DNA of 64,000 nt, taken from the NCBI GenBank assembly GCA_030526995.1, contig JAUNBP010000001.1:31258-95257 (forward strand), read 5' to 3'. This document shows, piece after piece, positions 32,801 to 58,308 of this stretch (its first letter is position 1; every line of letters begins with the position of its first letter). A program made the translations under genes and the position numbers. The notes under the pieces are model-generated. The model saw only the letters and a list, made by a program, of their open reading frames with translations, was not told where the DNA came from and did not search any database. Origin of the DNA: Clostridia bacterium (GTDB taxonomy: Bacteria > Bacillota > Clostridia > Christensenellales > CAG-138).

Positions 32801-33321
32801 ACCTCATGGAAGCAGACGGCATCAATGGTGAGCTGCGAGACAATGCCGTGGTGGAGATTGGAGGCATGCTCAACCAATGCAAGCAGAGACCAACAAAATC
32901 GGGCAACGGCATGATAGGCTACGGCGTGTTGGAAGGCGTCACGGGCAGCATAGAGGCGATCGTCTTTCCCAAGCATTTGCTGGAGTGCTCAAGGTATTTC
33001 CACGACGAATGCGCCGTCTTGGTTCGAGGGAGGTTCAGCATTCGGGAGGACAGGGCAAATTCGATACTGATAGAATCGCTCCTACCCTTGGACGCAGGAC
33101 TGAAAAAGCTGTACATTCGGGTGCCTTCGCTGAACGAGGAGCAGTGCAACCGAGTAAGGAGCTTAACCAAGAATTATTCGGGGACGACGCCCATCATCCT
33201 CGTGGACGCAGAAAAGCGGATAGCCAAGAATGCCCCGTCGAGCTGGGATGTGGAGATGAACGACCCGATGATGATAGTTTTATACAATGAATTTGGCGAA
33301 GGGAATATAATTTTCAAATGA
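29893..33321 (+). CDS. dnaE: DNA polymerase III alpha subunit (DnaE type)
   Basis: This 1142-aa protein is the DnaE polymerase. It begins with a PHP domain (FVHLHVHTQYSLLDGAARI). The polymerase palm has GPGRGSGAGSLAAY and PDFDVDFCYERR (catalytic Asps near residues 396-401) and KIDFLGLRTLT. A helix-hairpin-helix region follows, then an OB domain near residues 990-1040 (AVVEIGGMLNQC). Length is typical for clostridial DnaE. Firmicutes usually also have PolC, outside this window. The stop overlaps the next ATG. Confidence 0.97.
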   Translation: MQKPFVHLHVHTQYSLLDGAARIDELVNRAKELGQTALAITDHGVMYGVIDFFRACKNAGIKPIIGMEAYVAPRAYNIKEGKADREYAHLILLAKNDIGYRNLIYLSSEAFIHGFYYKPRIDYDLLRQHSDGLVCTSACLAGDIPQNFLLGRDEKAYEYAKLLKDIFGDDFYIELQNHGLREQADVLPKLRKLARELGIKTVATNDIHYVNREDAEAQDVLLCIQTQRFVDEQNRMRMETDQFYLKSYDEMAAALPNDLDALDNTNEVAKKCNLEIEFGVRRLPEFTAPEGKDNAAYLRELCEQGMKLKMPEAGQEAQKRLDYELNVIESMGFVDYYLIVWDFIRFAKSQDIMVGPGRGSGAGSLAAYCLDITDVDPIKYNLLFERFLNPERVSMPDFDVDFCYERRQEVIDYVGRKYGEGHVSQIITFGTMAARGVIRDVGRVLRLPYVEADRLSKLVPNELKMTLKHALELSSELRGLYETDEKVRKVIDLSMKIEGLPRHSSTHAAGVVVSGVPLNTVVPLQCNDDLLTTQFPMTTIEELGLLKIDFLGLRTLTIIRDTLDFIRQQGKEVPDFSKNDFSDPEVYKMIAEGKTDGVFQLESAGMRQFLLQLQPDCFEDLIAGISLYRPGPMESIPKYVRGKHEPSSVAYADEKLKPILATTYGCMVYQEQVMEIVRSLAGYSYGRSDIVRRAMSKKKHDVMARERKYFVYGTEGVEGAVKRGVKPAVANRIFDEMMDFASYAFNKSHAAGYAVLSYRTAYLAKYYPVEFLTSTINGYMTNSDTVAQYVYAARRQGIAVLPPDVNNSGAKFTVENGAIRFGLGAVKNVSPNVMDAMVRERELGGKFKNFFDFVERADGLNKRMLESLINAGCFDGMGVFRSQLLMAYDRALEGAAKNRKTKESGQLSLFDVDGGEAVKSDFELKLPKLPELSAQIKLQREREATGLYLSGHPLDDYADILSKHKYSVTDLMEADGINGELRDNAVVEIGGMLNQCKQRPTKSGNGMIGYGVLEGVTGSIEAIVFPKHLLECSRYFHDECAVLVRGRFSIREDRANSILIESLLPLDAGLKKLYIRVPSLNEEQCNRVRSLTKNYSGTTPIILVDAEKRIAKNAPSSWDVEMNDPMMIVLYNEFGEGNIIFK

Positions 33322-34967
33322 GGAACACCGCACCGGTACACAAGAATCAGGACTTGATTCTGCATATAGACGCACTTACAAGCGAGGGACAGGGAGTAGG
33401 CAGGGTGGAGGGCTTTGCGGTGTTCGTTCCGTTTGCGCTGGCGGGCGAAACCGTGTCTGCGCACGTTATCAAGGTTACGAGCAGCTATGCCGTAGCCAAG
33501 CTCATCGAGGTGATGGAGCCGAGCCCCGAAAGGGTAGAGCCGCTCTGTCCCGTGTTTTATGCCTGCGGCGGCTGCACCGTGCAGCACCTCAATTATCGTT
33601 CGCAGCTCGAGTATAAGAGGCAGGCGGTGGCGGATGCGCTTGAACGCATAGGCGGGTTTAAGGGCATAGAGGTTCTGCCCGCGATAGGCATGGACGAGCC
33701 GTGGCAGTACAGAAACAAGGGCAGCTTCCCCATAGGCAACGTCGGCGGGGAGATATCGATAGGCTTCTTCTCCCCGAGGAGCCACAGGCTCGTGCCGACC
33801 TATACCTGCCCGATATCCGACCGTCGGGTCATAGATACAGCAAACAAGGTGGCGGAGTGGGCAAACGAGAACCGCATCTCGGCTTACGACGAGCAGACCA
33901 AGCGGGGCGTCTTGCGTCACGTAGTCGTTCGTGCCACGCAGGCGGGCGGGATAATGGCGGTTGTGGTCACCACGACCTCCAAGCTGCCGCACTCGGAGCA
34001 GTTAAAGGAAAAGTTGGATGCGGTTGACAGCTTGTATCACAACGTCAACCCCAACGATACAAACGTGATATTCGGAGCCGAGTTCAAGCTGATATTCGGC
34101 GCAAGCGTGCTGACCGAAACGGTGTGCGGGAACAAGATTATCGTAAGCCCCCGCTCGTTTTTGCAGGTAAACCCGCTTCAATGCGAAAAGCTCTATGAAA
34201 AGGCGATAGAGTACCTAAACCCGCAGCCCCACGAGACAATTGCCGACCTCTACTGTGGCGTGGGCACAATTTCGCTGCTCTTGGCAAGAAGGGCAAAGAG
34301 GGTCATAGGCATAGAGAGCGTCCCCGATGCGATAGCCGACGCCCGCCGCAACGCCGAACTCAACGGGCTTGCAAATGTGGACTTCATCTGCGGCGAGGCG
34401 GAAAAGGTGCTGCCCAAGCGCATCGCAGACGGGCTGAGACCCAACGCCATAATCTTAGACCCGCCCCGCAAAGGCTGCGAGGAGCAGGTGCTAAAGGCAA
34501 TAGCCGACAGCAAAGCCGACCGCATCGTGTACATCTCCTGCAACCCCGCCACCCTCGCCCGCGACCTAAAACTCCTAAAAACCCACAACCTAACCCCCCA
34601 CCTAACCCACCCCCTCGACATGTTCCCCCACACCTCCCACGTCGAGACGATAGTTCTGTTGTCCAAACTCAATGCAAAACAGCACATCGCGGTCGATATC
34701 AACATGGACGAGCTCGACCTGACAGCCCCCGAGAAAAAGGCTACCTATGAGCAAATCAAGGCATATGTGCAGGAACACTCAGGCCTGAAAGTCAGCAACC
34801 TAAACATCGCCCAAGTCAAGCAAAAATGCGGCATCACGGAACGAAAGAATTACAACACCCCAAAATCCCCCACCGCCAAACAACCCCACTGCCCACCGGA
34901 AAAAGAATCAGCGATCATGGCAGCACTGAAACACTTCGGGATGATAAAATCATTGAGGCGTGATTAA
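33318..34967 (+). CDS. RlmD/RumA-type 23S rRNA uracil-C5 methyltransferase with C-terminal extension
   Basis: This 549-aa SAM enzyme has a TRAM domain (about 8-65), iron-sulfur Cys (CPVFYACGGCTVQHL), SAM motif DLYCGVGTISLLLA, and the catalytic Cys in ISCNPATLARD. It methylates U1939 or U747 type sites. The last about 95 residues after LDMFPHTSHVETIVLLSK form an extra module (TYEQIKAYVQEHSGL, KSPTAKQPHCPPEKE), also seen on other clostridial homologues, with a helical, DNA/RNA-binding look. The end marks the boundary of the GC-richer housekeeping block. Confidence 0.9.
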   Translation: MRNTAPVHKNQDLILHIDALTSEGQGVGRVEGFAVFVPFALAGETVSAHVIKVTSSYAVAKLIEVMEPSPERVEPLCPVFYACGGCTVQHLNYRSQLEYKRQAVADALERIGGFKGIEVLPAIGMDEPWQYRNKGSFPIGNVGGEISIGFFSPRSHRLVPTYTCPISDRRVIDTANKVAEWANENRISAYDEQTKRGVLRHVVVRATQAGGIMAVVVTTTSKLPHSEQLKEKLDAVDSLYHNVNPNDTNVIFGAEFKLIFGASVLTETVCGNKIIVSPRSFLQVNPLQCEKLYEKAIEYLNPQPHETIADLYCGVGTISLLLARRAKRVIGIESVPDAIADARRNAELNGLANVDFICGEAEKVLPKRIADGLRPNAIILDPPRKGCEEQVLKAIADSKADRIVYISCNPATLARDLKLLKTHNLTPHLTHPLDMFPHTSHVETIVLLSKLNAKQHIAVDINMDELDLTAPEKKATYEQIKAYVQEHSGLKVSNLNIAQVKQKCGITERKNYNTPKSPTAKQPHCPPEKESAIMAALKHFGMIKSLRRD

Positions 34968-35121: not shown

Positions 35122-38100
35122 TCAAACGGTATCAAGAATCTTTTGAACAGCATATGGCTTAGCATACTTGAGATAAGCATCACTTACAAAAATGGTGTTA
35201 GCAGCATGTGGTTCAACCCACATTGCGGGGTAGATAACAACCTTCTTTGTGCCTCTTCTCCCAGTTACGCTGATTTCATCATCAGCAGTTACTTCACAAC
35301 CGGATTGTCCAAGAATATTTGCCAAAGGCATGATCATGTTAATTTGTTCTTCTGTTCTGATTGGGGGAGTTTTTTGTCCATCAAGACCCCATTCAAGTAG
35401 CTGCAACGCTGCGAAGCGGTCAAGCCTGCCATGCACATACTGGTTCCTATAATGCTTCAGACATTTAGAACACGCAGATCCACAATCACAGGAACTCAGT
35501 AGCTTCCTCATATCGGTTAGAAGTTCAACAATTGCATCGGCTACGCTGACAGCATAACCAGCTCCGCTCGATAGGCTATCGTAAAGATATATATCGACGT
35601 AAGAGGCATCGACACCGGTTCTGAGACGATAACCGGTTACAAGTTCGGTAAATTCAACATCGAGCTTTTTGCTTGCTACCAGTCGCAATGCCTCAGCTAA
35701 AGATTGAGCTGCACGGTCAAGCCATGGATTATTGTTTCGGTTGGCATCAATAATCTTGCTGTCAATTGTGAATTCAAGAACTATCATATCAGTTATGAAA
35801 TCATAGCCAAGATTCACATTAAAGGAATTGCTGTGACGGCACTTGCCTCGAGCATATTTTGATTTATAGGGTCTATTAATGTCGTTCAGGACCGAAATAT
35901 CATTGCCCGGCATGGCAGCACCACAGTCTTTGCAGACCATGAAGCCTTTGTCGTTTGAACCTTTGTTCAGCATAATAATTCGCTGGTTTGTTCGTGAAGC
36001 AAGTCGTATGTTCCTACAACCTGGGATAAGTTTCATTTCTCTTGCATCTGGTAGAGTCGAATACAGGGGCTGCTGTACAGCAGTGTATTCTTCTGATAGC
36101 TGAACATCCGGTATTGATTCAGCATTCCTTGGTGCAAAGCCCCAAGGTCGCATCATTTCACGGGTGATTTCCAGATTACTGTTTCCACAAAACGGGCAGT
36201 ATTTTGTGTTCTCTTCCATCAGGTCGAACCAGCCACATTCAGCACACGTAACAACCTGCTTTACGTAATTTGGATCTTCAGTGTAGGCACGTGCCGGGGT
36301 TAGCGATTGACCATAGCGATACTCACTTCCGGGATAGTGGAATCCACCAATCTGATAGGTTTGCTTATCAACGACAATTGCTCTGCCAGGAGCATATTCG
36401 CCAATGGCGACATCAAGCCCACGATCAACTTTGTAAAGGATTTTTCCATTCATATCCGGTATATAGATACTTACTACATTTTTTGGAAAAGAGTATGTTG
36501 GAATAATACCTTCTTCATACAGAGCATCCAGGAGAACCTTTGCGTTGCCTCCGATGGACAGTTCGTCTGCACCAAAAAGCTCAGGGTGGTCTTGAAATTT
36601 TTCCTTGAGTGCATCAAAAGATTCTCTGAGGTCACTCTCAAACGCTGAATAATGAAATACTGCTTCGATAGGCAAAAGGAGATGGTCTTTTTCGACGATG
36701 TAGGAAGCAATATATTTTTTGAAGTCGTCAAGGAAGTACTTGAGAAAATCAGCGGCGGAAATTGTATCAAGACTCATGTGCTTTTCTGAGAGGAACTCTT
36801 GCAAGATAACCATAGCCAGATGGCGCTGAAGGAGCTTCTCGCTTCGCACATCAATCCAAGGTTTGCGAGGATCGCCTCGAAACATGGGAATAGGATCATT
36901 GAAGTATAATGCATCATGAGGACCGTCTTCACAAAAGGTAATGATAGTAGACAAACTTGAACCGCGTCGACCTGCACGACCTGCACGTTGCTGATAGTTT
37001 TCGCGCATTGGAGGAATGTTTCGCATACCAACGGCAACTAAGGAACCGATGTCAATGCCAACCTCCATGGTGGTCGTGCTACTGAGGATATCGACAGGAG
37101 TTTCACCGTCTTGAACCAGATCTTGGAAGCGCAACTCATATTGTTCGGTCTTGCTCCAAAGATCATCGCGCTGATCTTTGTGCGAGAGCTGTGCAGTATG
37201 CTCCTCTGTATCAATCACATGGATCGGCTCCCCTCGGAGCGCATCAGAAACAGGGTTTCTCCAGAAGCTAAGTGCTTCATAATCGTCAGAGTTCATTTCG
37301 TGGATGCGGTTGGACCCACAACTGGGACAGTTTCCTTTTAAGAGAAAGGGGGTAAGCTCAGAGCACTTCTCGCACTTGTACCATATATGTGAAGCATCAA
37401 AACGTGCTTTGACTCTGGAAAGGTCAACATACAACCTACCATTATCAGGTTGGGCTAAGTCAAGAAACGCTTCCTTCAACACACGTTTCCATGCCATTTC
37501 AGTTTCACTTTCATTGTCCCATCCCATGATTTTCCGAATGACTTTTGAAAACCTCCAATTATTATCAAGTCCGTAACCGCCATAACTTGGGCGAACTTTC
37601 AATCGAACTGTATCACTGATGGTATGACCAATGGCTGTAGATGTATCGCAGATTGAAAGCATCCAAGCATTGAAGAAATTAACAAACTCTTCATTGGTGA
37701 CAGTTACATTGTTTTCGTTAAGAGCATCGATAGCATCAAAAAGTGCCTGATCAGTAGGTTCAATCCAACTTGTAGCCGAGTCGTACAAGGTGTTATAACC
37801 ACCGGAATACAATCGAAGGAGGTATTCTTGCATTTGCACAGGCGCATTTGCAATAGTAAACCTTGGAGAATAGCTTCCACCTCGCCTTACGCATCGACTA
37901 TAGTTTTTCAATGCGGAAGCACAGTCTTCAGCAAATTTTGTGCGTTCAGAAGAGTGAAACATCTGCACATGACGCTGACCGGCTGCAAGGCAGAAGTAGT
38001 CGTACAGTGAATTCATGGAGTGTTCGACTGGCTGTTCTTCCATTGTTTTTAGCGCTATTGCGAACAACTGCCTTGCAACAGAAATGTCAGAAGCATCGGA

Positions 38101-40368
38101 CATATCTCTGGCGAGTTTTGCAGCACGTTGACGACTATCAGAGAATAGCAATACCTTGCGCCCTTCATTAGGAAGCCGATCAGGGTTGCCATCCTTTCCC
38201 GGTACAGAGGGTTGCATTTGAAACTGTGACTTAATTAAGTTAAAGAAAGACTGGTTACCCCGAGTGCTAAACGAGGTAAGCTGCGATGTGGAAAGCTGAT
38301 GCCTACAATGCGGGCAGATCTGAAAGGTAATGATCTGTGGTCTTCCCTTTGCATAATAATTGCAGTAGTATAGCGTTCTAATCCACGGTTTACCCGCAAC
38401 AGAGTCATCCGTAAAGTTGATAAAGCCACTCTTGACATCGAGATAACATGGCTTGATGGCGTTTTTTCTTTGCTTTTCAGGCAACTCAAAATCGTCAGTC
38501 GGGATAAACAAATGTACTTCTTTCATCCTACGATCCATTAATTGACCGGGGTAGCGCCATAGATATACATTTCCATGTAGATCTGAGTTATCATCAAGAA
38601 CATAGCCCTTGAAGAACAGTGCTCCGCAACGCCTGTCATTGTAAAGTTCATATACAACACTGCCGCAATGTGGACAAGTTAAGTTACCATCATGCAGATA
38701 TATCTCACCTAAAGTGAGACCTCCTCCTGAATGAGAATGACTACAATCCGCATTGGCACAGGCATAGACTCCGAAAATGCCCTTGAAAAGCATATGCATG
38801 CGTGCAGGGAAAAGGACGGAACCCTTGGTGTTTTTTGCTAATGGTGCAATTGCCAGAAGAACACAAACTGCTTTTAGAGCATTTTCCGAACTTAGTCCCG
38901 GAAAAATATCGGAAGACAGTTCGTCCAAAGATACTGCGTTTCCACGACAATACTTGATCAGTTCATGAAACGGACGATAATAGATAATATTTTTGTACAT
39001 CCAGTTGTATATCTGTTCCAATGAATTGATACTTCGGTCAAAGTTTTCCACTTGGTGCCAGAACGACAAGAGAGCAGAAAGCTTTGATTCATCCTTGCCT
39101 TCAAATTCAATAGGGTCCAAGCTTAATAGCAGTTCGACAGGTATATCATACTTCAACTGACCATCAAGAGACTCTCTTTCACCAGTGAGATAGCAAAACT
39201 GGGTTGCTGTGTCGGAAGCAGTAAGCTCATTTGCAAACTTCATTACAGAATCGACATCTTGTTGATTCTTGCTGGGCATACTTGCGGTAGTGAGTATAAA
39301 TTGCACTCGGTCACGAGCAATACTGAGTTTATGAAAAAGTCTGCGAATCAACAGTGCGACTTCACCACCTGAAGAGCCGCGGTACATATGTGCTTCATCA
39401 ATAACAAACAACAATTTGTTCTCGGTGTTTGAAGCAAGCCACTTGCGAGTATCGTTCCATATTTTTTGCTCTATGGGGCGCAAGAGCATGTATTCTAACA
39501 TAGAATAATTTGTGATGAGAATATCAGGGCAGAATTGTTGCATCTCAAAGCGAGTTATTAGCTCTGCATCATCCTCGTTTGGAACATGCCTGCTCGCGCG
39601 AAGCCCTTGCAAGAACTGGGTCATATCTTCTTTTGCAGGGAGCTTTCCTTCCTTGAGAAGGTGGCTAAAGAATTCTTTTTCGGAATTACTTTGTGGAAAA
39701 GACATCCTTGCCAAGGTTTTTTCGAGTTTTCGGTCCTGCTCTGTGGAAGGTTGAGCTCCGGGATACGGAGTTCGTCCAGTATACATACCAAACTGGGGGC
39801 GACGAACTTCATCACCGCAGGTGTTTCGAAAAACTTTTATAAACTTCTTATCTGAATCTCCCAACATCCTTCTAAGCCGGCTAACTTGATCTGAAACAAG
39901 AGCGTTCATTGGGTACATGATAATAGTGCGCACACCTCGTTTAGCCCATGATCCTTTCGAATTCCTTGCTTCAGCGGCCATCTTTGCAAGAAGTGGCCAC
40001 ATAAAGCACTCCGTTTTACCAGAACCAGTGCCGGTTGAGACAAATAGATTTTCTCCCCTGGTAGCAGCTTCAAGGGCAGATATCTGGTGTGCAAATGGAG
40101 ATGCAAAAACTCCAATTCCGGCATCTGTCAACTTCAAAAAGTACTCTTTCATCCATGATTCCAAGGATGCTGTTTCTATGCCATTTTGTACTGCAACATA
40201 TGCTGGTGATGATTCGATAAAGGGTTTCTGATAAAGCAGCCCCGCATCGTCAAGATGACTGCTTATTGCTGAAAGCAGTAGGGGAGATTTCCCGAAATAT
40301 TGCGATTTAATATAGTTCTCTAGCTCCGTCCGAAGCTGCTTATGAACAAAGTTTGCTCCATTTTGCAT
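35122..40368 (-). CDS. Large DEAH-box helicase with DUF1998-type C-terminus (DruE-like)
   Basis: This 1748-aa superfamily 2 helicase has a Q-motif-like PFAHQISALE (residue ~95), Walker A VSTGTGSGKTE (110-120), DEAH box FVIDEAHMYRGSSGGE (321-336), motif III TTASM and motif VI QQRAGRAGRRGS (~1130). Several Cys4 ribbons are present (CPHCGSVVY, CEKCSE/CPSCGS, CAECGW/CPFCGN). The C-terminus has the DUF1998/MZB signature: YDSLSSGAGYA, CDCGSACSKCLKHYRNQ, LDR. Length and architecture match DruE of Druantia anti-phage systems and related defence helicases. It is last in a minus-strand operon, with TGATG coupling to the 339-aa gene. Function by homology only. Confidence 0.8.
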   Translation of the reverse strand: MQNGANFVHKQLRTELENYIKSQYFGKSPLLLSAISSHLDDAGLLYQKPFIESSPAYVAVQNGIETASLESWMKEYFLKLTDAGIGVFASPFAHQISALEAATRGENLFVSTGTGSGKTECFMWPLLAKMAAEARNSKGSWAKRGVRTIIMYPMNALVSDQVSRLRRMLGDSDKKFIKVFRNTCGDEVRRPQFGMYTGRTPYPGAQPSTEQDRKLEKTLARMSFPQSNSEKEFFSHLLKEGKLPAKEDMTQFLQGLRASRHVPNEDDAELITRFEMQQFCPDILITNYSMLEYMLLRPIEQKIWNDTRKWLASNTENKLLFVIDEAHMYRGSSGGEVALLIRRLFHKLSIARDRVQFILTTASMPSKNQQDVDSVMKFANELTASDTATQFCYLTGERESLDGQLKYDIPVELLLSLDPIEFEGKDESKLSALLSFWHQVENFDRSINSLEQIYNWMYKNIIYYRPFHELIKYCRGNAVSLDELSSDIFPGLSSENALKAVCVLLAIAPLAKNTKGSVLFPARMHMLFKGIFGVYACANADCSHSHSGGGLTLGEIYLHDGNLTCPHCGSVVYELYNDRRCGALFFKGYVLDDNSDLHGNVYLWRYPGQLMDRRMKEVHLFIPTDDFELPEKQRKNAIKPCYLDVKSGFINFTDDSVAGKPWIRTLYYCNYYAKGRPQIITFQICPHCRHQLSTSQLTSFSTRGNQSFFNLIKSQFQMQPSVPGKDGNPDRLPNEGRKVLLFSDSRQRAAKLARDMSDASDISVARQLFAIALKTMEEQPVEHSMNSLYDYFCLAAGQRHVQMFHSSERTKFAEDCASALKNYSRCVRRGGSYSPRFTIANAPVQMQEYLLRLYSGGYNTLYDSATSWIEPTDQALFDAIDALNENNVTVTNEEFVNFFNAWMLSICDTSTAIGHTISDTVRLKVRPSYGGYGLDNNWRFSKVIRKIMGWDNESETEMAWKRVLKEAFLDLAQPDNGRLYVDLSRVKARFDASHIWYKCEKCSELTPFLLKGNCPSCGSNRIHEMNSDDYEALSFWRNPVSDALRGEPIHVIDTEEHTAQLSHKDQRDDLWSKTEQYELRFQDLVQDGETPVDILSSTTTMEVGIDIGSLVAVGMRNIPPMRENYQQRAGRAGRRGSSLSTIITFCEDGPHDALYFNDPIPMFRGDPRKPWIDVRSEKLLQRHLAMVILQEFLSEKHMSLDTISAADFLKYFLDDFKKYIASYIVEKDHLLLPIEAVFHYSAFESDLRESFDALKEKFQDHPELFGADELSIGGNAKVLLDALYEEGIIPTYSFPKNVVSIYIPDMNGKILYKVDRGLDVAIGEYAPGRAIVVDKQTYQIGGFHYPGSEYRYGQSLTPARAYTEDPNYVKQVVTCAECGWFDLMEENTKYCPFCGNSNLEITREMMRPWGFAPRNAESIPDVQLSEEYTAVQQPLYSTLPDAREMKLIPGCRNIRLASRTNQRIIMLNKGSNDKGFMVCKDCGAAMPGNDISVLNDINRPYKSKYARGKCRHSNSFNVNLGYDFITDMIVLEFTIDSKIIDANRNNNPWLDRAAQSLAEALRLVASKKLDVEFTELVTGYRLRTGVDASYVDIYLYDSLSSGAGYAVSVADAIVELLTDMRKLLSSCDCGSACSKCLKHYRNQYVHGRLDRFAALQLLEWGLDGQKTPPIRTEEQINMIMPLANILGQSGCEVTADDEISVTGRRGTKKVVIYPAMWVEPHAANTIFVSDAYLKYAKPYAVQKILDTV

Positions 40369-41387
40369 CAGAACTGTCCTCCTTCAAATTGATAGCCCTC
40401 ATCAGAGAGAATCTTTTTTATGGATGTGAAGACTTCGGTTGAGAGTTTTCGCCTAAAGTCATGCGGGAGTGAAGTGCATTTCTCGGGCCAGCTGTAAAGT
40501 TTCAAAAACTCAAGTTCTCGTGGTGGAAGCAAATAATTTATGCGTATATGGACTAATGACTCATCCTCAGAGTATCTTATCGGTGGCAATGTTCCATAGG
40601 CGGAGAGGCAGGCACATGAAAGTGTTCTATAATTACGAGATTCAACCTGCCACTGTGGAAGAGGACTAACTTCTATCATAGCGTCAATATAACGATAAAG
40701 ATAGTAAAGTTGCAAACCTGTCATACCGGTCCGAAGAATCGAAACGGTGCCGGTCATATCTGGTTTGTTTATCCAGTACCCTTCAGAGTAAGGCGGTTTT
40801 AAACGCAGGTACTCTGTGCCATATTCAAATGATGGCCTGGACTCCCAAGAAGCAGAGGATAGTATTGTATGCCATATCGCTTGTAGATTCTCTTGTTCAA
40901 GACCGAACATCGTTTTTATCCTACTTAGGTTCACTCTCGGACTCGTTGCTTCATCATATTTGGAATAAAAACCAATACCAGATACGCAGGAGATACTATC
41001 TAAAGGAATTCCTCTTTGAAACAGAATGCCATCAAACGGTTCTTCATGTTTTACTGAAGGGGCTATCCTATTGGGCCGATGGTAAACCACTCCCATGCTT
41101 AAAAATTGGTTTGCAATCTCATCTTCAAGTTCATTGGAGGCATATGGCAAGCTCTCGGATAGTTCTGGGTACATTGATTTATAATTTGCAAGCATGCTGT
41201 GGATTCTTCTTTTTAAGTGCACAATGGAAACAGGCTCCTCCGAGTCATCCCAAAGTGAAGCATAGGCCATCATTCCGCAGATGCTATAAATCAAACGTGT
41301 TTTCCATTCATTCTCAGTTTCTTGTTTGCCTTTAAGAATGTTATATCGATGCGATACTGTTGAAAGCAACCCGCTATATTTGTTCAT
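40368..41387 (-). CDS. Unknown 339-aa protein of the helicase operon
   Basis: I recognise no domain. It is a soluble, Tyr/Trp-rich protein with a hydrophilic N-terminal helical part (ETENEWKTRLIYSICGMM) and no signal peptide or membrane segment. It is translationally coupled at both ends: TAATG with the upstream split ORF and TGATG with the helicase. A ribosome binding site GGAGATG precedes its ATG. By position it is comparable to the accessory subunits of Druantia-type systems that accompany the helicase, but I see no sequence proof. Confidence 0.75.
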   Translation of the reverse strand: MNKYSGLLSTVSHRYNILKGKQETENEWKTRLIYSICGMMAYASLWDDSEEPVSIVHLKRRIHSMLANYKSMYPELSESLPYASNELEDEIANQFLSMGVVYHRPNRIAPSVKHEEPFDGILFQRGIPLDSISCVSGIGFYSKYDEATSPRVNLSRIKTMFGLEQENLQAIWHTILSSASWESRPSFEYGTEYLRLKPPYSEGYWINKPDMTGTVSILRTGMTGLQLYYLYRYIDAMIEVSPLPQWQVESRNYRTLSCACLSAYGTLPPIRYSEDESLVHIRINYLLPPRELEFLKLYSWPEKCTSLPHDFRRKLSTEVFTSIKKILSDEGYQFEGGQF

Positions 41388-42860
41388 TATACATCTCCTA
41401 ATATCTGTTGAATGTTGCGCTTTAGGCTTGCAGAAATTGCTTTCTGTGAGTCAGCGATTGCTTCTTTGAGCTCGTCAATTGCCAGGGATGCACAAGCAAT
41501 AGGGAGAATTGCAAATAAGAATTCTTCATCCGTTGTTGTGACAGAATAAATACCATGCATCGTACCAACAAGGCGGTTGATTCGGTTTTTAACCAAAGAA
41601 CTCAATGCAAATTTTGAAAGGATTTTTAATTCTTTACGCGCATCCTTTGGGGGGGGAGTATGGACTGAAGTCATCGGCAAAGTAACCTCCGTAGTATTTG
41701 CCGACAGCTTTTTTATCCACAAAAAACTCTGTAAACAATGGCAAAATAAATCCATACAGGCTTTTGGGCTCAACTTGAATATCTTCTGCAAACGGATGGG
41801 TGGCAAGATAGAAAATGTCTTCATGAGAAAGGATGTCCGGGAGTCTATTCATCCAACTACTTGAAAAAAGATTTTTGATTATCACGATATCTTCGCCATT
41901 CGCACCGATTTCCGTGATTATGTGATTGGCGAAACTACCCTCACAGCAGAGCAACCCGTATTTACGAGCAGAGATGGCTGCGCTAAACGCTTGAACTATA
42001 TCGGTTGCGTTAGGACCAATAAGTAAGATTGGCTGTTTTTCAATGTATGCGGCACAGAGGAAAGCGGCTAACCCACCTTTGTATTGTTCTGCAACGCCGG
42101 CTTCTCCCAGTTCAAATGCAGCAGTATTAATTGCGTCCGCCCAGCAGTGATGAGCATCAAGGTCATTGAGGTCCTCAAATGCAGAATATGTGTGATATGT
42201 AGTAATTGCGTTTTCGTATGGAGCGGCAACAGGAACCTTTGCGACTGCAGCGTTCCCCTGTTGTCCACTAACAAATGCCATATTCGCAATGAAATCCGCC
42301 GCATTTTCTTGTGCCTTTCGGATTCTCTCGGCAACTGCTTTTTCAACATTCTCAGCCAGTTTTTCTTTTTCGGCAATAATATCGGCAAGGCGCTCTTCCT
42401 CCGATTTTGTTCTATTAAGAGTTTCTCGCACTTCAGTTAAGCTGGCAGTAGTAGATTTTAGTTCCGCATTAAGTGTGTTTAGTTCTTCTTGGGCTTTGGC
42501 TAGTAGACTCTTGTTCTTTGATTCCCAATCTGTGCGAACAAGGGTCTTTGTTTTTTCTTGGAGTTCAGTGCTTGCAGAAATGGCAGAGAGCAGTACTTTG
42601 TCTTCTAAGCTATCTCCATCAATGTATCTCCAGACCTCATTTAAGAATTTATCAAGTAATTCTTTAGCAGCAGGGGCGGAGCAGTGTACTTCTGTCTGAA
42701 TCCGGCATATTATGTCGTTAATCGGAATTGCTCCGAGAAAATCCTTGAAGGTTTTGTACATGGTGCGAGTCAGTCCCCTTGTTTTGTATGTGGACCAGGA
42801 AATTGAAGAGAGAACAATATCCTTTACAAGATCAAGAGGGCTTTTTATACAATAAATCAT
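41387..42860 (-). CDS. Split ORF of the helicase operon (frameshift at a C8 tract)
   Basis: Two overlapping ORFs (42860-41634, 408 aa; 41824-41387, other frame) form one protein of about 490 aa if a single base is removed from the run of eight C at 41656-41649 (minus strand). With eight C the frame ends YSPPKGCA-stop; with seven it continues YSPPKDARKELKILSK to a stop that overlaps the next ATG. The protein has a coiled coil at about 90-190 and an AAA-like or Rossmann-like part (QPILLIGPNATD). It may be phase-variable, a pseudogene or a sequencing error. There is no ribosome binding site before ATG 42860. Confidence 0.65.
41649..41656 (-). repeat. C8 homopolymer causing a frame switch
   Basis: Eight consecutive C on the minus strand (G8 on plus), the exact point where the two ORFs of the split gene change frame. 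Such tracts are typical slippage sites for phase variation and also for sequencing error. Confidence 0.9.
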
Positions 42861-42899
42861 GCTCGGAATGCCGGCAAATGCGTTCTTATAAAAAGAGGG

Positions 42900-44138
42900 T
42901 CAGTTGTCTAAACGCAAAATATCGTTATCAACGAATTCATATATCGGGGCTACATTACAATCCTCAGCAAAGGTTGTCTTTCCGTTAATAGTGTTGATCC
43001 CCTTGGCATTGAGCAGGACTCCCATATACTGTCCATTGGAAACATAAAGTGAGAACATGATTTTACGACTATGAGGTTTAAATTCAACCCCAAACTTTAA
43101 CATCTTAATCAGTTCATCAAGATTTGACGTCTCAGTTATGATGACAACCTCAATGGCATCAATAGCCGAATTGAATTGGGATGAAATGTAATCCTTGGAA
43201 GAATCATTAATGTTCGGAACTGCGGACCAATTCCAGATGCCATAGAAACCATTCTCGCAAGGTCCATCCTTGTAAAAAAGATTCTCTCGATTTACAAAGT
43301 ATGGCGGAACATCTTTGCTTTTGCGAAAAATTTGATAGTGTCCATTGTGGTTCAAATCAGCATAGCGTACAAGGCGTTTCTGACCATTGATCAATTTAAA
43401 GCCACATAAAGAAATGATCTCATCGCCGTCAACAGAGGGCAGAACAGAAGAATCTGTATCGTCAAATAGTGCGATATATTCAGGATTGTCACTTCTTACA
43501 GCAGAAGGAATTGCCTGCAATTCAGCAATTCTCTCTTGAGCTTCGATCAATGATGCTTCTAAGTTAATTTTATCCTGCTCAATTTTCAAGATTTTTTGTT
43601 CATATTCCTCCTTTATAGCATAGATACTCTGCTGCATAGCTTCGATTTGAGTTAACAATAGGAGTTTTTCATCTTCAATAGACCTAATGTCGTCAGCCGC
43701 TTTGGGACTCCTTGTGCGCTCAGATTTGATGCACTCCATTTCACTGCATAGCTTAGAGTACGCATCTGCATCCATAGACTGTCCCACAAGCTTAAGATAC
43801 AAGTCAACATTATTGACGAAGAAAGAGTCAAGCAAGGTCGTTGCAAGAGCGATGTCATGAAGTGCGCCTTCGCTTTCAAGCTTATTTATATTTTCCTTAA
43901 TTTCCTTGATCCAGGCATCCACACTTTTGTTGATATATGTTGAGATAAAGGGGCTGTCAACATTGGATATAGCAGTTGACAGGGCAAGCTCCTCAGACAT
44001 TGCTTTGACGCTGAATCCTTTATTAATTTTCAATAACTCTAGTTCCTCTTTCATAAACAGTTCTTTGAAAGCCCTACCGGTAATAATCCCGCAGATAATT
44101 GATTTTTCTTCCAAGGTAAGAGACTCAACGTAATTCAT
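42900..44138 (-). CDS. Coiled-coil protein of the helicase operon
   Basis: This 412-aa protein has a helical N-terminus, a long coiled coil at about 140-225 (DDIRSIEDEKLLLLTQIEAM, KILKIEQDKINLEASLIEAQ), and a C-terminal globular domain of about 180 residues with no recognised family. ATG 44138 overlaps the previous stop (ATGA) and has AAGGAG upstream. It ends at TGA 42902-42900, and the same frame stays open for 13 codons straight into the ATG of the next ORF, so the two could be one longer product by readthrough. Confidence 0.75.
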   Translation of the reverse strand: MNYVESLTLEEKSIICGIITGRAFKELFMKEELELLKINKGFSVKAMSEELALSTAISNVDSPFISTYINKSVDAWIKEIKENINKLESEGALHDIALATTLLDSFFVNNVDLYLKLVGQSMDADAYSKLCSEMECIKSERTRSPKAADDIRSIEDEKLLLLTQIEAMQQSIYAIKEEYEQKILKIEQDKINLEASLIEAQERIAELQAIPSAVRSDNPEYIALFDDTDSSVLPSVDGDEIISLCGFKLINGQKRLVRYADLNHNGHYQIFRKSKDVPPYFVNRENLFYKDGPCENGFYGIWNWSAVPNINDSSKDYISSQFNSAIDAIEVVIITETSNLDELIKMLKFGVEFKPHSRKIMFSLYVSNGQYMGVLLNAKGINTINGKTTFAEDCNVAPIYEFVDNDILRLDN

Positions 44139-45709
44139 GATATATCTCCTTGTCTATTTATTTTAATGCTGAGATAGGCATCCTGCAATCTGCGATAAGA
44201 TTGCTCATTGATGGAGCCAAACCTGATGCATTTTCGTATCCATTTGCATATTCGAGGATAGTGATTTAGGCCTGTCAATATATTTCGAAGAGAGTGGGGA
44301 GCTGGAATTAGTGCCCCGGATACATTTGTGATTCTTTTTAAAAGATTGATTTCATCATTTATAATGGCGGCACGTTGCCTTTTGAAATAGACTTGCCAAA
44401 TGATATCAAGACCAATGGCAACTTGAACACTTAAGCCATAGGTTATTCCATCTAATTCAATAAATTTATCTGCAGGAATTTTCCGCTTATCCAGAATGTG
44501 GTTATTATAGGAGATAATGAGCTGGCCATCAAATGATGATCTAAAACGAAGAGTTCTGTTTTGTGGTAAGATTTCGGCCTCTCCCGAAATGACCTCGAAA
44601 CCAGCACGGTCGGTCACTGAAACTTCTGGATCTGGAGCCTCTCGGTTAAGAGGCTCTTTCCAGAAATAAGCATATTGTAATGCTTGAGTACGCCCCACGG
44701 ATATTAGCTGCTGCCTGCCGTAACAGAGCACCTCATATAATTTCGATCGTGATGAATTGCAACTCAGTTCACGAACTGTCACAGAGGGGAATGTTTTAAC
44801 CGCCGCTATATTGCCTTCAACAAGCATATATACTTTGTCATGATTGTGCTTTATTATGTAACTGCCTTCGACAAATAAAGGCCATATCGGTTGTAATGTG
44901 ACAGGGTGATCCGTCAAGCGACAATGGAAGTTAAGATAGAATCGGGCTGCATCTTCATTAAATGCCGATGCAGAAACTACATAAAGGATCCAAGATTCCC
45001 AACCAAATTGCTTTCGAGTGACTTCTTGAATCTGGATGCACCCATATGATCTCATGGGAAAATAGTCACGTTTTAGTAAATAATATTCTTTTCCAATCTC
45101 GACATCGGCATCGTATGTGAGTTTATTACCGGAAATCTTCTCGAACAATGTACCTTTCGGATCAATGCCTTTAATTTCTTCTGGCCAGAATTCGTGTAAT
45201 TTATTGTTTCCGTTTTGGAAGCTGAGAGTATATTTGTCAAATGGCTTTTCGCCGATAGGAAGATATGTGATGCTGTCATAATTTAGCCGCTCTTTAGCGA
45301 ATATATAGGATGTATCCGACGCTCCCTTTGGCTTGATTTCTATGCGAAGATTCTTGCTGAGCAGACTTATTGGAACTCGAATTAGACCGATTTCTAATCT
45401 GAAAGAAGATGAAGATACGCCTGTAATACGGATTGGTAAATCGTGTTCTTGAGAACCGTAAGAGACAGAGTAACCGGCTCCGAATGTACGCTCAGGACAA
45501 TCCTTGCTTTTTTCATGGGCGCTGTGTTTGAAGTAACGCATCCTAATATCACCATTGGTGAGGATGACATACTGACCACAAAGTTCACACATAAACAGAC
45601 CGCTATGCGCAGAGACTGTTCCACCTGGATGCAATTTGGCAGCTTGCTCGGCTGTAATACGCTTCCAGCCATTTTCCGACCACATACAGACATGCGTTAG
45701 TGACGCCAT
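44135..45709 (-). CDS. CoiA-like zinc-finger protein, first gene of the helicase operon
   Basis: This 524-aa protein starts with a putative zinc finger: FMCELCGQYVIL, then RYFKHSAHEKSKDCPERTFG (Cys-x2-Cys, His, Cys). This resembles the N-terminal finger of CoiA and related nuclease-associated proteins. The rest is beta-rich and unknown, with no nuclease motif that I can see. AAGGAGGAG precedes ATG 45709. The lower GC content than the flanking housekeeping genes suggests horizontal transfer of the whole operon. Confidence 0.75.
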   Translation of the reverse strand: MASLTHVCMWSENGWKRITAEQAAKLHPGGTVSAHSGLFMCELCGQYVILTNGDIRMRYFKHSAHEKSKDCPERTFGAGYSVSYGSQEHDLPIRITGVSSSSFRLEIGLIRVPISLLSKNLRIEIKPKGASDTSYIFAKERLNYDSITYLPIGEKPFDKYTLSFQNGNNKLHEFWPEEIKGIDPKGTLFEKISGNKLTYDADVEIGKEYYLLKRDYFPMRSYGCIQIQEVTRKQFGWESWILYVVSASAFNEDAARFYLNFHCRLTDHPVTLQPIWPLFVEGSYIIKHNHDKVYMLVEGNIAAVKTFPSVTVRELSCNSSRSKLYEVLCYGRQQLISVGRTQALQYAYFWKEPLNREAPDPEVSVTDRAGFEVISGEAEILPQNRTLRFRSSFDGQLIISYNNHILDKRKIPADKFIELDGITYGLSVQVAIGLDIIWQVYFKRQRAAIINDEINLLKRITNVSGALIPAPHSLRNILTGLNHYPRICKWIRKCIRFGSINEQSYRRLQDAYLSIKINRQGDIS

Positions 45710-46413: not shown

Positions 46414-47511
46414 TTATCCTTCAACCGGAAAGGCTGTTATTATCTTAACAACAAACCTCAAGATGCATGCAGCATCAGATGAACTAATGTCTCCTCCATC
46501 GACATTCCCTCTATAAACCTGTTCCTCCGAGAGCGTTTTTAAGTGAACAATATGCCTCAAAACCTCAGCAGCATCGGCGGAAGTGACTTCTTTATCCATG
46601 TTTACATCTCCGAAGAGAATCAAACTTTCAAGTATAAACGACTTCTCATCGGTATAATCATTGTCAAGGAAAGACACTGTTGCAGTATAGCGAATCTCAC
46701 CGTTTTGCGTATATGTCGGAGGCACTGATGTGCAGGACACTTCAGCTTCAACCCTATGAATGTGTGTTGAATCGTTTTCGCATATAAATATGGCTTCTAC
46801 ATCATAGCCGATATCCGTTTCCTCCCATAGCCATTCCGGCCCTAAAAAGCTGTGCCCCAAAGCTTCTATAATTTGCTGCTCGACAATGAAAACATTACAA
46901 ATTGGGCAAAAAAGTCCTTCGGTTAGACCCGAGCAAGTGCATGTTGCATCAACTGCATCCACAACGGTAAGACTGTCTATTTGCAGTCCTCCATCTTCGA
47001 AAGTAATATTTAGTGGCGAGTATTCTTCATTGGTAAACACCATAGATTCCGTTGTATCGATTGCTATCGACGCAAAGCCCTCCGACGACTCTTTTGTTCT
47101 AAACGACATGGTGAGTATACTTCCGGCATCTCTAATAGGTTCTACTATTGTCTCCCAACTAACATAAACATAGCCTGCTATATTCGTGTTGATTGTTAGT
47201 CCCCCTAATCCATTCATAGCACTTCCAGATGTCGCAGACTCAAGTTCAAGCCGTGTAGAATCATAAGCGATGGCAAACTGCATAACATAAATATTGGCAT
47301 TCGCTCCAATGGTTGCATCAATTACATAACTTGTGTCAGGATGAGCGTGACTCACCGTTGTTACAGCCAAGCACATAGTTTCTGTCGCCGTCGCAGATTT
47401 TATCGGAAATGCCGCAGACACCAGGAGCACAAGGACAAACGCCCATGCCTTGCACTTAATTGTCAGCATTCTGCAGCATTTCCGTTGTGCTTTATTTCCC
47501 TTGTACTTCAT
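46414..47511 (-). CDS. Secreted cohesin-dockerin protein
   Basis: This 365-aa exported protein has a signal peptide (hydrophobic 22-35). A cohesin-like domain at about 47-178 contains NIYVMQFAIAYDSTRLELES, the typical beta-strand and YD pattern. A Cys-rich module (CTCSGLTEGLFCPICN, ALGHSF) covers 190-222, followed by an unknown beta domain. The dockerin at 300-362 has two repeats, GDVNMDKEVTSADAAEVLRH and GNVDGGDISSSDAACILRF; the second calcium loop is imperfect. Having both partners, it could act as an adaptor that links modules. The ATG overlaps the stop of the giant gene (TAATG). Confidence 0.82.
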   Translation of the reverse strand: MKYKGNKAQRKCCRMLTIKCKAWAFVLVLLVSAAFPIKSATATETMCLAVTTVSHAHPDTSYVIDATIGANANIYVMQFAIAYDSTRLELESATSGSAMNGLGGLTINTNIAGYVYVSWETIVEPIRDAGSILTMSFRTKESSEGFASIAIDTTESMVFTNEEYSPLNITFEDGGLQIDSLTVVDAVDATCTCSGLTEGLFCPICNVFIVEQQIIEALGHSFLGPEWLWEETDIGYDVEAIFICENDSTHIHRVEAEVSCTSVPPTYTQNGEIRYTATVSFLDNDYTDEKSFILESLILFGDVNMDKEVTSADAAEVLRHIVHLKTLSEEQVYRGNVDGGDISSSDAACILRFVVKIITAFPVEG

Positions 47512-53288: not shown

Positions 53289-53331
53289 CCTATACTCCCT
53301 CCATACTTGAAAATGTATTCGTTTCGTGCTT

Positions 53332-54339
53332 TTACCTGCGCTGTTTAGCCAAAAGCCAAACGGCAACAGCCGCCATTAAAACTGCTGCACAAAGAACAAA
53401 CGGCCACCACGGAATTGGCTTCGCCGTCCCCTTGTCGCTTTCTTCCTCATCCTCGCTTGCAGTATTCTCCGTCTCTGTAACTATATCTAAATCCTCGACA
53501 TCGGTATTGTCAATATTTTCAACATCGGAAACCTTAACCGATATTCCGCAGGTTGCATAAGTGGTTCCATCCAACGTCTCCGCAGTAATAATAGCTTCCC
53601 CCTCCGATACAGCGGTTACGGTTCCGTCCTCTGAGACAATTGCAACCTGCTCGTTGCTGCTCGTCCATACCACCTGCTCGCTCGTGTCGATGACATAAAG
53701 CTCCTGCGTCTCTCCTGCCGTTATTATCGATGCGTTTTCGTTCAAGGTGATTCCACTGTTTATTCCTTCAACAACGGTCGGTGAAGTTGTTGCGGCAGGA
53801 TGTGGGCTGTATGATAAATCGCTGCCATCCGTAGCTTGATTGGGAGTCGGTGACCACTGTTCACTCGAGAGGTTAAGAATCACATCCTCGATTTCCAACT
53901 CGATTTGATCATAGTTGCTATCCACAACAATGAACTCTTGTGACATATCGAAGCTAACAATCGTTTCTCCTGTAGCAGACGGACGCTTCATAAAGGTCAG
54001 ATTCATCAGTTCCCCTCCCGATTCCAACGGGGAAAGGGAATCCCACACAAAGAAGATAACACCCTCATTCGGATGTGACATTAACGGCACCGTACTGCTT
54101 TCAAAACAATCACCGACGTTCATCGAAACAAATTCCAGTTTTTCGGGTTCATATACAACGGCGAACTGTATGGCGACTGCTCCACCTGCATCTGACAGCA
54201 TGACCGAAATAAGATAATTTTCCTCGTCGATTCCATTTGAAATAAGCTTAAGCGAGCCAATATTGTTTGCATTAGAAATACAAGGTAAAAAAGAACTAAT
54301 GAGTGCAATAGCCATAAGAATAATAAATTTTCGTCTCAT
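53332..54339 (-). CDS. Membrane-anchored cohesin/Big2 surface protein
   Basis: This 335-aa protein has a signal peptide (1-25), a cohesin-like domain at about 28-158 (AVAIQFAVVYEPEKLEFVSM), a Pro/Thr/Ser linker, a Big2 immunoglobulin-like domain at about 196-270 (VVWTSSNEQVAIVSEDGTV), and an acidic spacer. It ends in a C-terminal transmembrane helix (PFVLCAAVLMAAVAVWLL) and a basic tail AKQRR. It lacks an LPXTG motif. It is the likely cell-surface anchor for the dockerin proteins encoded downstream. GGAGGG precedes ATG 54339; the next gene starts 43 bp after it. Confidence 0.85.
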   Translation of the reverse strand: MRRKFIILMAIALISSFLPCISNANNIGSLKLISNGIDEENYLISVMLSDAGGAVAIQFAVVYEPEKLEFVSMNVGDCFESSTVPLMSHPNEGVIFFVWDSLSPLESGGELMNLTFMKRPSATGETIVSFDMSQEFIVVDSNYDQIELEIEDVILNLSSEQWSPTPNQATDGSDLSYSPHPAATTSPTVVEGINSGITLNENASIITAGETQELYVIDTSEQVVWTSSNEQVAIVSEDGTVTAVSEGEAIITAETLDGTTYATCGISVKVSDVENIDNTDVEDLDIVTETENTASEDEEESDKGTAKPIPWWPFVLCAAVLMAAVAVWLLAKQRR

Positions 54340-54466
54340 TGACTTCCCTCCAAGTAACCCCAACAATACAAATCGTCGAACAGAGCCTCTGCTCTTTTCT
54401 CACATTCTCACACGGAGCATTCGTTCCTATGACACTTCAGTCCAATTTCGTTTATCTATCAAATCA

Positions 54467-56340: not shown

Positions 56341-58308
56341 ATGGAAAAACTTAAAAAAAGGATTCGGAAACGAATCAAAGAACTCTCAAAACTGAAAAAA
56401 GCAATTATCTGTATTGCAGTGGCAGCTTTCGTACTGTACTGGATAGGCATAGGAGCGCAAGCGATACACTTGCAGTTTAAGCGATTCACAGACGGGAATC
56501 TGTTTAATCCCGCTGCAACCCAACCCGTTAATTGGCTTCCGATAAGCGGAGCGTATAACTATCTGTTCACAACGGTAATCGGACTGGTGTTCTTTGCGGC
56601 ACTGGTTATCTTCATCATTTGGTTTGTCGGCTATCTGAGAGCAAGGAGCAAATGGGCTGAAGGCACAGAGGACGAGGAACGGAACTTCACACAGGGTGCA
56701 AAAGGCACATACGGAACGGCTAAATGGCTGACAAAGGAAAAAGCAGAGGAAGTTCTGGAATTTGGCAAGATAGAGGACATAATGGGAACAGTGCTTGGCA
56801 AATATGAGAACGGTGTCGTAAGCCTGCCAAGTGATACAAGACTGAACCAGCATATCGCAATCATGGGTGCAAGCGGTACAGGTAAGTCAAGGGGCTTCTC
56901 CCGAACGCATATCATCCAAAGCGTAAGGAGAGCCGAATCAATCATAGTCACCGACCCTAAGGGTGAACTGTACAATTCAACTGCCGCATATTGCAAGGAA
57001 CATGGGTATGAGGTAAAGGTCTTGAACCTTGTTTCCCCCGAACACAGCGACTATTGGAATGTCATGGACGAGATGTGCGGGAATACCCTGCGAGTACAAA
57101 CGCTTGCGGAAGTCATTATTCAGAATACCAATGTGAGCAGTAAAGGCGGTGACAGGTTTTGGGACGATTCAGAAACAAACCTTGTTAAAGCAGTCGCCCT
57201 AATGGTCGAGTTGGACAAGCCGTCAGACGGGAATGGCACACTGCGTAAGACCCTGCCGATTATCTATAAGCTGATAGCAGGGAACAGCGAAAAGGACTTG
57301 ATAAGTATGTTTGCAAGAAAGGGCATAGTGTCGGATGCACACCCCGCATATATCCCGCTGCAAATGTTCTTGCAGGCAGACCCAAAGGTACGAGCAAGCG
57401 TTGTAACGGGCTTTGGCACACGACTTCATATCTTGCAGGATAAGACGATACAAAAGATGCTGTCACACTCAAATATAGACCTGTCGCTTCCTGCGAAAAA
57501 ACCGTGTGCGTATTACATCATACTAAGGGATAACGATAGAAGCCTTGACTTTATTGCAAGCCTTTTCTTCACATTCCTGTTTGTGCGAATCTGCGAATAT
57601 GCCGACAGCCAACCCGACTTGCGCTGTACAATCCCCGTCAATCTGATTCTGGACGAGTTCAGCAATATCGGCTCAATCCCGAACTTTGAACAGGTGTTGA
57701 GTACCATACGAAGCCGTGAAGTCCATGTGAGTATCATCTTGCAGAACATAGCACAGTTGAAGAATAGATACCCGAACGATGTATGGAGCGAAATCTTGGG
57801 CAACTGCGACACTCAAATTCTTTTGGGCTGTACCGATGAATACACTGCCCAATACTTTTCGGACAGAAGCGGTGAAATGACGGTCATAGTGGACAGCAAT
57901 CGGTACGGACGGAAAACCTTTGCCCCCGGTCAAATCATAGACGACCACCAAGTAATGACAGGTGTGGGTAAACGCCCCCTGCTTACCATGCACGAGGTTC
58001 TAACCCTGCCGTCCGATGAACTGCTGATATGTCTGCGCGGCAACGATGTGCTTAAAGCCAAGAAGTTTGACTATACCGAACACCCCGAAAGCAAGTACCT
58101 CAAAGAACTAAATTGCAGGAACTATAACCCCAACACAATCTTTGAGCAGCCAGAGCAGCCAGCACCTCCCCGTCAGACTGGAAATGAGGATACGATTCCT
58201 ACATCAAATTCCCCGTCTGACACGAGCGTGAAACCCAAGCCCAAACCCAAACCCAAGACCGACCAAGAGCAGCCGAATCTGTTTTGGTTTGAATCTAAAT
58301 CAGATTAA
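56341..58308 (+). CDS. VirD4/TraG-family conjugative coupling protein
   Basis: This 655-aa protein has two N-terminal transmembrane segments (about 20-42 and 73-98) and an ATPase domain with Walker A GASGTGKS (176-183), DPKGELYNSTA, Walker B VNLILDEFSNIGSIP (~434) and the later motif QILLGCTDEYTAQYF. It links the relaxosome to the type IV secretion channel. No relaxase, VirB4 or integrase is in the window, so the element is incomplete here or continues to the right. The last 55 codons (Pro/Lys-rich) contain a REP-like hairpin element in the coding sequence. AAGGAGG precedes the ATG. Confidence 0.9.
   Translation: MEKLKKRIRKRIKELSKLKKAIICIAVAAFVLYWIGIGAQAIHLQFKRFTDGNLFNPAATQPVNWLPISGAYNYLFTTVIGLVFFAALVIFIIWFVGYLRARSKWAEGTEDEERNFTQGAKGTYGTAKWLTKEKAEEVLEFGKIEDIMGTVLGKYENGVVSLPSDTRLNQHIAIMGASGTGKSRGFSRTHIIQSVRRAESIIVTDPKGELYNSTAAYCKEHGYEVKVLNLVSPEHSDYWNVMDEMCGNTLRVQTLAEVIIQNTNVSSKGGDRFWDDSETNLVKAVALMVELDKPSDGNGTLRKTLPIIYKLIAGNSEKDLISMFARKGIVSDAHPAYIPLQMFLQADPKVRASVVTGFGTRLHILQDKTIQKMLSHSNIDLSLPAKKPCAYYIILRDNDRSLDFIASLFFTFLFVRICEYADSQPDLRCTIPVNLILDEFSNIGSIPNFEQVLSTIRSREVHVSIILQNIAQLKNRYPNDVWSEILGNCDTQILLGCTDEYTAQYFSDRSGEMTVIVDSNRYGRKTFAPGQIIDDHQVMTGVGKRPLLTMHEVLTLPSDELLICLRGNDVLKAKKFDYTEHPESKYLKELNCRNYNPNTIFEQPEQPAPPRQTGNEDTIPTSNSPSDTSVKPKPKPKPKTDQEQPNLFWFESKSD
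58172..58221 (+). repeat. REP-like hairpin copy 1 (inside the coupling-protein gene)
   Basis: GTCAGACTGGAAAT ... ATTCCCCGTCTGAC, 50 bp, imperfect inverted ends. It encodes part of the low-complexity C-terminus. Confidence 0.8.

Follow-up and report, generated by a model that had tools for sequence, protein, structure and literature searches.

The locus and its four genes

We analysed a 64,000-nucleotide stretch of Clostridia bacterium DNA (GCA_030526995.1, contig JAUNBP010000001.1, positions 31,258 to 95,257; hereafter the window). Its minus strand encodes homologues of four proteins of the Druantia type I defence system, in the order druB-druC-druD-druE. The first gene, druB (44135..45709, 524 amino acids (aa)), encodes a protein with an N-terminal CoiA_N/DUF7830-like Cys/His region. 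It is followed by an interrupted druC (41387..44138) and by druD (40368..41387, 339 aa) and druE (35122..40368, 1748 aa), both of which are intact.

The druC gene is read in three pieces: a front piece of 412 aa (42900-44138), a middle piece of 408 aa (41634-42860) and an end frame of 145 aa (41387-41824). The front and middle pieces share one frame and are separated by a TGA codon (42900..42902) followed by 13 codons. Beyond a run of eight C residues on the minus strand (C8, at about 41649..41656), homology to the druC of a relative moves to another frame, that of the 145-aa open reading frame (ORF). The genes are tightly coupled: the 524- and 412-aa ORFs overlap by 4 bases, and the 145- and 339-aa ORFs, as well as the 339- and 1748-aa ORFs, share one base. 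The original prediction, made from this DNA without database searches, had seen five coupled minus-strand ORFs here. Their coordinates and coupling stand, but the block is four genes, one of which is broken; we rejected a reading as five separate genes, as the 412-, 408- and 145-aa ORFs belong to one druC that is a single ORF in close relatives. The prediction also described the operon as more AT-rich than its flanking genes, and indeed G+C content is 0.40-0.48 over 34-46 kb against 0.50-0.57 before 34 kb.

DruE, the conserved helicase

The 1748-aa protein matches the PADLOC DruE1 model from end to end (E=0, 1722.8 bits, residues 2-1745). In Pfam it contains DEAD/DEAH (94-179), Helicase_C (1089-1136) and MZB (corresponding to DUF1998; 1557-1637) domains, and its Walker A, DEAH and QRAGRAGR motifs are intact and conserved in an alignment of six rows. 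The PADLOC models of DpdJ, DrmA and BrxH cover only fragments of the protein, with scores far below that of DruE1. By these comparisons the window helicase is a full-length type I DruE, and it has the feature expected of Druantia of any type, a large superfamily 2 (SF2) helicase with a C-terminal DUF1998/MZB domain.

Among solved structures DruE gave six rows, including two large helicase entries (9tu7, 9wae) and YprA, although the latter (6znp_A, 751 aa) matches the window protein with only 60 bits. A stand-alone YprA or MrfAB context has been described as the mark of non-defence repair helicases (PMC12458937). The window protein does not have this context: it is 1748 aa long, scores 1723 bits with DruE1 and lies in an operon with DruB-D. 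It is also the slowest-changing of the four proteins (identities between the related locus L048 and the window are 43% for DruB, 32% for DruC, 42% for DruD and 67% for DruE). DruE1 matches above 1700 bits were found in four of 395 genomes of the order and in three of 398 drawn from the phylum, with the window's own genome counted in both.

DruB, DruC and DruD

Searched as single sequences against PADLOC, the 339-aa protein matches DruD1 (E=4.3e-11) and the 524-aa protein DruB1 (E=6.1e-4). The 408-aa piece of DruC has a weak match to DruC1 (E=0.21), ranked below several coiled-coil models, and no PADLOC match at E<=1 was found for the 412- and 145-aa pieces. The assignment is clearer at the level of families. 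At E<=0.01, DruD1 is matched by all 33 aligned rows, including the window (best 2.7e-19), DruB1 by 15 of 35 rows, also including the window (best 5.7e-8), and DruC1 by 14 of 33 DruC relatives (best 8.5e-10). One of these 33 matches the DruG2 model (5.6e-5).

We also compared family profiles with those of a canonical set (proteins of the genome G724 and Pseudomonas putida, with Nitrosococcus added for DruD). DruB gave a probability of 96.7% (E=3.7e-10). The matches of DruC and DruD were short and of low probability, and their assignment therefore leans mainly on PADLOC and operon position. The CoiA_N/DUF7830-like region of DruB scores under the curated Pfam cut-offs, with DUF7830 detected in 29 of 35 rows. 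No solved structure matched DruD, and a PHROGs search gave no useful match.

Taken together, these homologies identify the 524-, 412+408+145- and 339-aa products as DruB, DruC and DruD of Druantia type I. The assignment of DruC holds at the family level, the window copy being interrupted, and the B-C-D-E order is that of type I.

In the branch of DruE relatives to which the window belongs (see below), DruC has an N-terminal module, a central domain with a conserved SLC...W.W...PN pattern, a coiled coil and a C-terminal region. This arrangement is incomplete in 12 of 33 aligned rows, which lack the bulk of the N-terminal module. A GPN-type loop is present near the C-terminus in most rows, together with a hydrophobic strand but no GKT motif; read by eye, this C-terminal region may be a degenerate P-loop. 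Of the 63 rows shown in a comparison of DruC with solved structures, 60 are coiled-coil or helical chains.

The original prediction had correctly described the helicase as DruE-like, with a DEAH motif and a C-terminal DUF1998. It had found no obvious match between the partners and the type-defining Druantia genes, and this does not hold, since they match DruB, DruC and DruD of type I and the 412-aa ORF is the front of druC. In the search against defence-system profiles that it proposed, the type I models of B, D and E match window proteins, no DruA was found and DruC1 reaches only 0.21. The neighbourhood analysis that it also proposed is described in the next section.

Related loci and their phylogeny

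A scan of genome contigs with the middle region of DruE, covering one genome per species and 84,980 species, returned 175 stretches, 130 of which encode relatives. We examined 83 related loci, comprising the best 80 of these 130 relatives and three from viral contigs. The genes druB, druC, druD and druE lie in this order on one strand in 60 of the 83, and in all 60 the DruC ORF adjoining druD is 519-1029 aa long. In 17 of the remaining 23 loci the available DNA begins within the operon. Among the others, L098 has broken druE frames behind a piece of druB, L071 has no recognised D, L084 has a wider gap, L040 and L101 encode DruE without recognisable B, C or D, and in L094 the genes for B, C and D lie on the opposite strand.

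In a FastTree phylogeny of 95 DruE rows, 78 DruA-less rows form one branch with a local support of 100, which splits into a branch of 10 rows (100) and a branch of 68 rows that includes the window (92). A mixture-model IQ-TREE analysis of 33 chosen rows, with L152 left out, recovered the DruA-less branch with an SH-aLRT support of 100 and a branch characterized by a methyltransferase gene, also with 100. Sixteen rows of the window branch group together at 100, and L101 and L111 join them at only 59. The window DruE groups with DruE proteins, apart from the outgroup helicase rows (seven in FastTree, three in IQ-TREE).

In the 10-row branch, the methyltransferase gene lies directly after DruE in G749 (L028:16090-16926) and in eight of the nine loci L102-L110 (L102 and L104-L110), while L103 runs out of contig. 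The G749 enzyme is a D12-class N6-adenine methyltransferase, and similarity to this enzyme identified the others. Two loci of this branch duplicate the records G192 and G260. DruC of the methyltransferase branch is short (519-624 aa, L102-L110) and matches the N- and C-terminal parts of the longer proteins. The window's branch is without a methyltransferase gene beside DruE, and none of this kind was found in the window operon.

As labelled, the members of the DruA-less clade are mostly Bacillota, joined by isolates of Pseudomonadota (Anaerobiospirillum, Ruminobacter, Parasutterella). A few metagenome bins are assigned to other phyla, possibly through misbinning. Named species with the operon include Fusibacillus kribbianus (L032) and Ruminococcus flavefaciens (L059), and the methyltransferase branch includes Sarcina sp. 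DSM 11001 (L104). Two loci, L074 and L099 (from Anaerobiospirillum succiniciproducens and a Clostridiales bin, respectively), have second druB/druC sets behind the first operon, followed in L074 by druD and the start of druE.

With the 412-aa piece as query, we found nothing in plasmids or viral contigs. DruE alone found nothing in viral contigs, where the alignment of its middle region did find relatives. The loci L111 and L112, on viral-labelled contigs, encode DruE with about 41% identity, with B, C and D present, and MT836687.1, an 11.8-kb record labelled 'Bacteriophage sp.', has 67% identity over 68% of DruE. These viral-labelled relatives hint at carriage by phages or satellites.

The absence of DruA

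Druantia type I is described as DruABCDE (PMC13316683, PMC7251935). The first of these proteins (DUF4338, PF14236) was not found in the window operon. A DruA profile built from 10 sequences was searched in 95 stretches and was positive in four, namely the Nitrosococcus, P. putida and Paracoccus plasmids and G724. It had no match in the window or in any of the 83 related loci (L031-L113), as far as their DNA extends. At the level of whole genomes, PF14236 was found in none of 26 chosen genomes of the clade, including the window's own, and in none of 14 named control genomes, while G724 and three plasmid records matched in the same search. In an even draw of the phylum the family is present in 14 of 119 genomes, so the search was able to see DruA.

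Nine plasmid records, by contrast, contain a relative of DruE at E<=1e-50, and in all nine DruA lies near it (seven by annotation and profile, Paracoccus by profile, and Natribaculum at about 8.6 kb from DruE). The Leisingera and Meiothermus plasmid records list genes other than B-C-D around DruE. One genome of the phylum, G724, also has DruA near DruE, and the DruA-positive loci are L114-L116, L027, L152-L156 and L177. In L027, the locus of G724, DruE and DruA are separated by a 391-aa gene (16549-17724) that resembles a nuclease by eye.

The original prediction had seen no DruA-like DUF4338, and this extends to the window's own genome, which is 80% complete, and to the related loci as far as their DNA extends. 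From these searches the absence of DruA looks like a property of the clade. We rejected the idea that this strain alone has recently lost druA, as the absence maps to one supported branch. The prediction had suggested a new subtype or a separate system: the term 'new subtype' is fair for the DruA-less clade as a whole, while 'separate system' finds no support. We found no description of a DruA-less Druantia in the literature searched, but the publication in which Druantia received its name (Doron et al. 2018) lay outside that search and we do not claim novelty.

Mobile context

On the other side of druE lies a rumA-type gene (33318..34967, plus strand), which encodes a uracil-5-methyltransferase family protein with a TRAM domain. 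The two genes are convergent, tail to tail, and RumA carries a C-terminal tail of about 98 extra residues that is missing from most relatives. A RumA match of the same family was found in 23 of 26 genomes. In a comparison of 20 RumA loci, the tail is present in the window and in L159 and L160 and absent from the other 17, 15 of which are 449-465 aa long. Convergent RumA-type ORFs lie 108-705 bases from DruE in seven of the 62 loci with at least 1.5 kb after DruE. Six of the seven have the tail, L041 being without it; the L039 ORF is matched in its last 113 residues only.

Upstream of the operon are three surface-type proteins with cohesin and dockerin or Big_2 domains (46414-54366, minus strand). 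Farther on are a VirD4/TraG-type type IV coupling protein (56341..58308, plus strand; Pfam T4SS-DNA_transf, 1.7e-56) and an IS605 OrfB/TnpB-type gene with a Cas12f1-like TNB domain (61265-62356, plus strand), in agreement with the mobile DNA predicted nearby.

Streptococcal integrative and conjugative elements (ICEs) with serine integrases are reported to use rumA as their insertion site, where they replace the 3' end of the gene (PMC4701971). Given this precedent, the RumA tail and the VirD4-type coupling protein, the window probably contains a putative ICE that ends inside rumA and carries the Druantia operon as cargo on its rumA side. A search for a direct repeat of the rumA end elsewhere in the window gave one 13-mer only, and the far end of the element was therefore not located.

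Interpretation and alternatives

We consider it likely that this locus is a DruA-less Druantia operon, druB-druC-druD-druE, which is probable cargo at the rumA end of an ICE and is damaged in druC. With druC broken, the system is probably inactive in this genome, unless the lesions are assembly errors.

In intact members of the clade, DruE would be the effector, loading on the single-stranded 3' ends of replicating phage DNA and unwinding or otherwise disabling it. In type III, DruE was reported to load on 3' single-stranded DNA and to assemble into a nuclease-competent state, with DruH as the likely sensor, and the authors proposed that DNA processing by DruE is the shared core and the partners are triggers (PMC13192584). 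With this precedent and their faster divergence, DruB, DruC and DruD may form a sensing and adaptor layer. DruB would contribute a zinc-finger-like N-terminus, and DruC a coiled-coil scaffold with a degenerate nucleotide-binding-like end and, in the window branch, an extra central domain. DruC would be the most likely point at which sensing is coupled to DruE. The DruE of type I is reported with only an inactivated Vsr domain (PMC12458937), so the window protein may act by unwinding or together with a host nuclease. The role of DruA, whose DUF4338 domain is annotated as GNAT-like (PMC10853773), would be dispensed with.

Going further, the clade may represent a functional, DruA-independent Druantia subtype spread across several phyla, with activation rules that differ from those of type I. 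The inserted domain of DruC would replace DruA in one branch, and the N6-adenine methyltransferase would have joined in the sister branch, where it may mark self DNA. We hold this proposal tentatively, as one about evenly poised that we would not yet favour.

Several points weigh against our interpretation. The PADLOC LmuB models, which are also coiled-coil, match 13 of 33 DruC rows (best 4.2e-7), nearly as many as DruC1 does, and L031, the DruC row nearest to the window, matches LmuB (1.7e-4) and not DruC1. The profile comparisons cover only 76 columns for DruC (probability 74.9%, E=2.6e-5) and 96 for DruD (48.5%, E=1.8e-4), with only two or three canonical sequences behind each, and the proposed roles of the DruC domains are read from sequence. 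FastTree issued a long-branch warning that included L152 and L101. The window's own genome is only 80% complete, 17 loci begin inside the operon at a contig end, and only the best 80 of 130 relatives were examined, so that loci with DruA that branch near the clade's base may have been missed. The integrase and the far end of the element were not identified within the window. Pairwise ratios of nonsynonymous to synonymous substitution (dN/dS) average over the whole divergence, with dS >1 in several comparisons, which makes the dating of the lesions loose. Finally, the anti-phage activity of clade members is our inference.

Against this background, the alternative with the best standing, though an unlikely one, is that the interruptions are assembly or consensus errors and that the true druC is intact. 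The genome is a draft in 86 contigs, one lesion lies at a homopolymer, and selection is intact in all pieces: compared with three relatives, dN/dS is 0.06-0.12 for DruE, 0.12-0.17 for DruD, 0.07-0.19 for DruB and 0.13-0.39 for the DruC pieces. As whole-divergence averages, these values fit recent lesions without dating them. A homopolymer error would, however, leave the TGA unexplained. The druC pieces still show purifying selection, which points to recent lesions or to errors of assembly. Split druB or druE frames also occur in the relatives L040, L061, L067, L080 and L098, which suggests that frames broken by decay or in assembly are not exceptional in this family.

It is improbable that we are dealing with an ordinary type I operon whose druA was simply lost or left out of the assembly. 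All partners are of type I, and in an incomplete genome any genes past a contig end are unseen. Nevertheless, none of the 83 loci or 26 genomes has DruA, at least 1.5 kb upstream of druB is covered in 47 of the 60 full-operon loci, and the DruA-less rows form one supported branch.

Marginally less credible still is a working DruC, made from separate pieces or by TGA readthrough and a frameshift at C8, perhaps as a phase-variable switch. A C8 run is the kind of tract that is prone to slipping, an ATG lies 13 codons past the TGA, and purifying selection is detected on both sides of each lesion. However, no C run of six or more was found in the druC of seven relatives checked, and ten close relatives (L031-L034, L036, L037, L039, L041, L043 and L069) carry druC as a single ORF of 875-922 aa. 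In the relative G200, one contig has druC uninterrupted where the window has the TGA, and another has it uninterrupted where the window changes frame. Decay is the better fit for two independent lesions. A separate, non-Druantia system that shares only a DruE-like helicase is very improbable: single-sequence matches are weak (DruB1 6e-4, DruC1 0.21) and some DruC rows match LmuB instead of DruC1, but the partner families match DruB1, DruC1 and DruD1 in canonical order.

If the locus is a DruA-less Druantia, as we favour, the persistence under selection of a large clade without DruA suggests that this protein lies outside the minimal machine. The loci amount to a set of natural deletions (A+BCDE, BCDE, BCDE+methyltransferase) in which the function of each component could be studied, and scans that require DruA would miss or misfile them. 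Location next to rumA, where a putative conjugative element ends, would provide a route of spread.

Comparison with known systems

The window operon shares a DUF1998/MZB helicase of the same superfamily with ARMADA, BRIGADE, TALON, DISARM and Dpd, YprA-family systems described in PMC12458937. It differs from them in its partner genes, the DpdJ, DrmA and BrxH matches being fragmentary. With Druantia type III (DruH-DruE) it has the YprA-family core of DruE in common; the DruE of that type carries a PLD nuclease predicted to be active (PMC12458937). Unlike type III, the window partner proteins have no DruH match at E<=1. The DruM protein of Druantia type II is a methylase, and one sub-branch of the present clade also has a methyltransferase adjoining DruE. 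DruE is likewise common to type II and to type IV, the latter as type IV CoCoNuT and PADLOC type IV (PMC8565338), but no window partner matches DruM, DruF, DruG or DruL at E<=1.

The nearest system is Druantia type I, with homologues of DruB, DruC, DruD and DruE in the same order and the DruE1 model matched from end to end. What sets the window operon apart is that no DruA was found, that DruC of its branch is enlarged by a central domain, and that its DruE falls in a separate clade. The locus is ordinary in kind, but it belongs to a broad DruA-less variant of Druantia.

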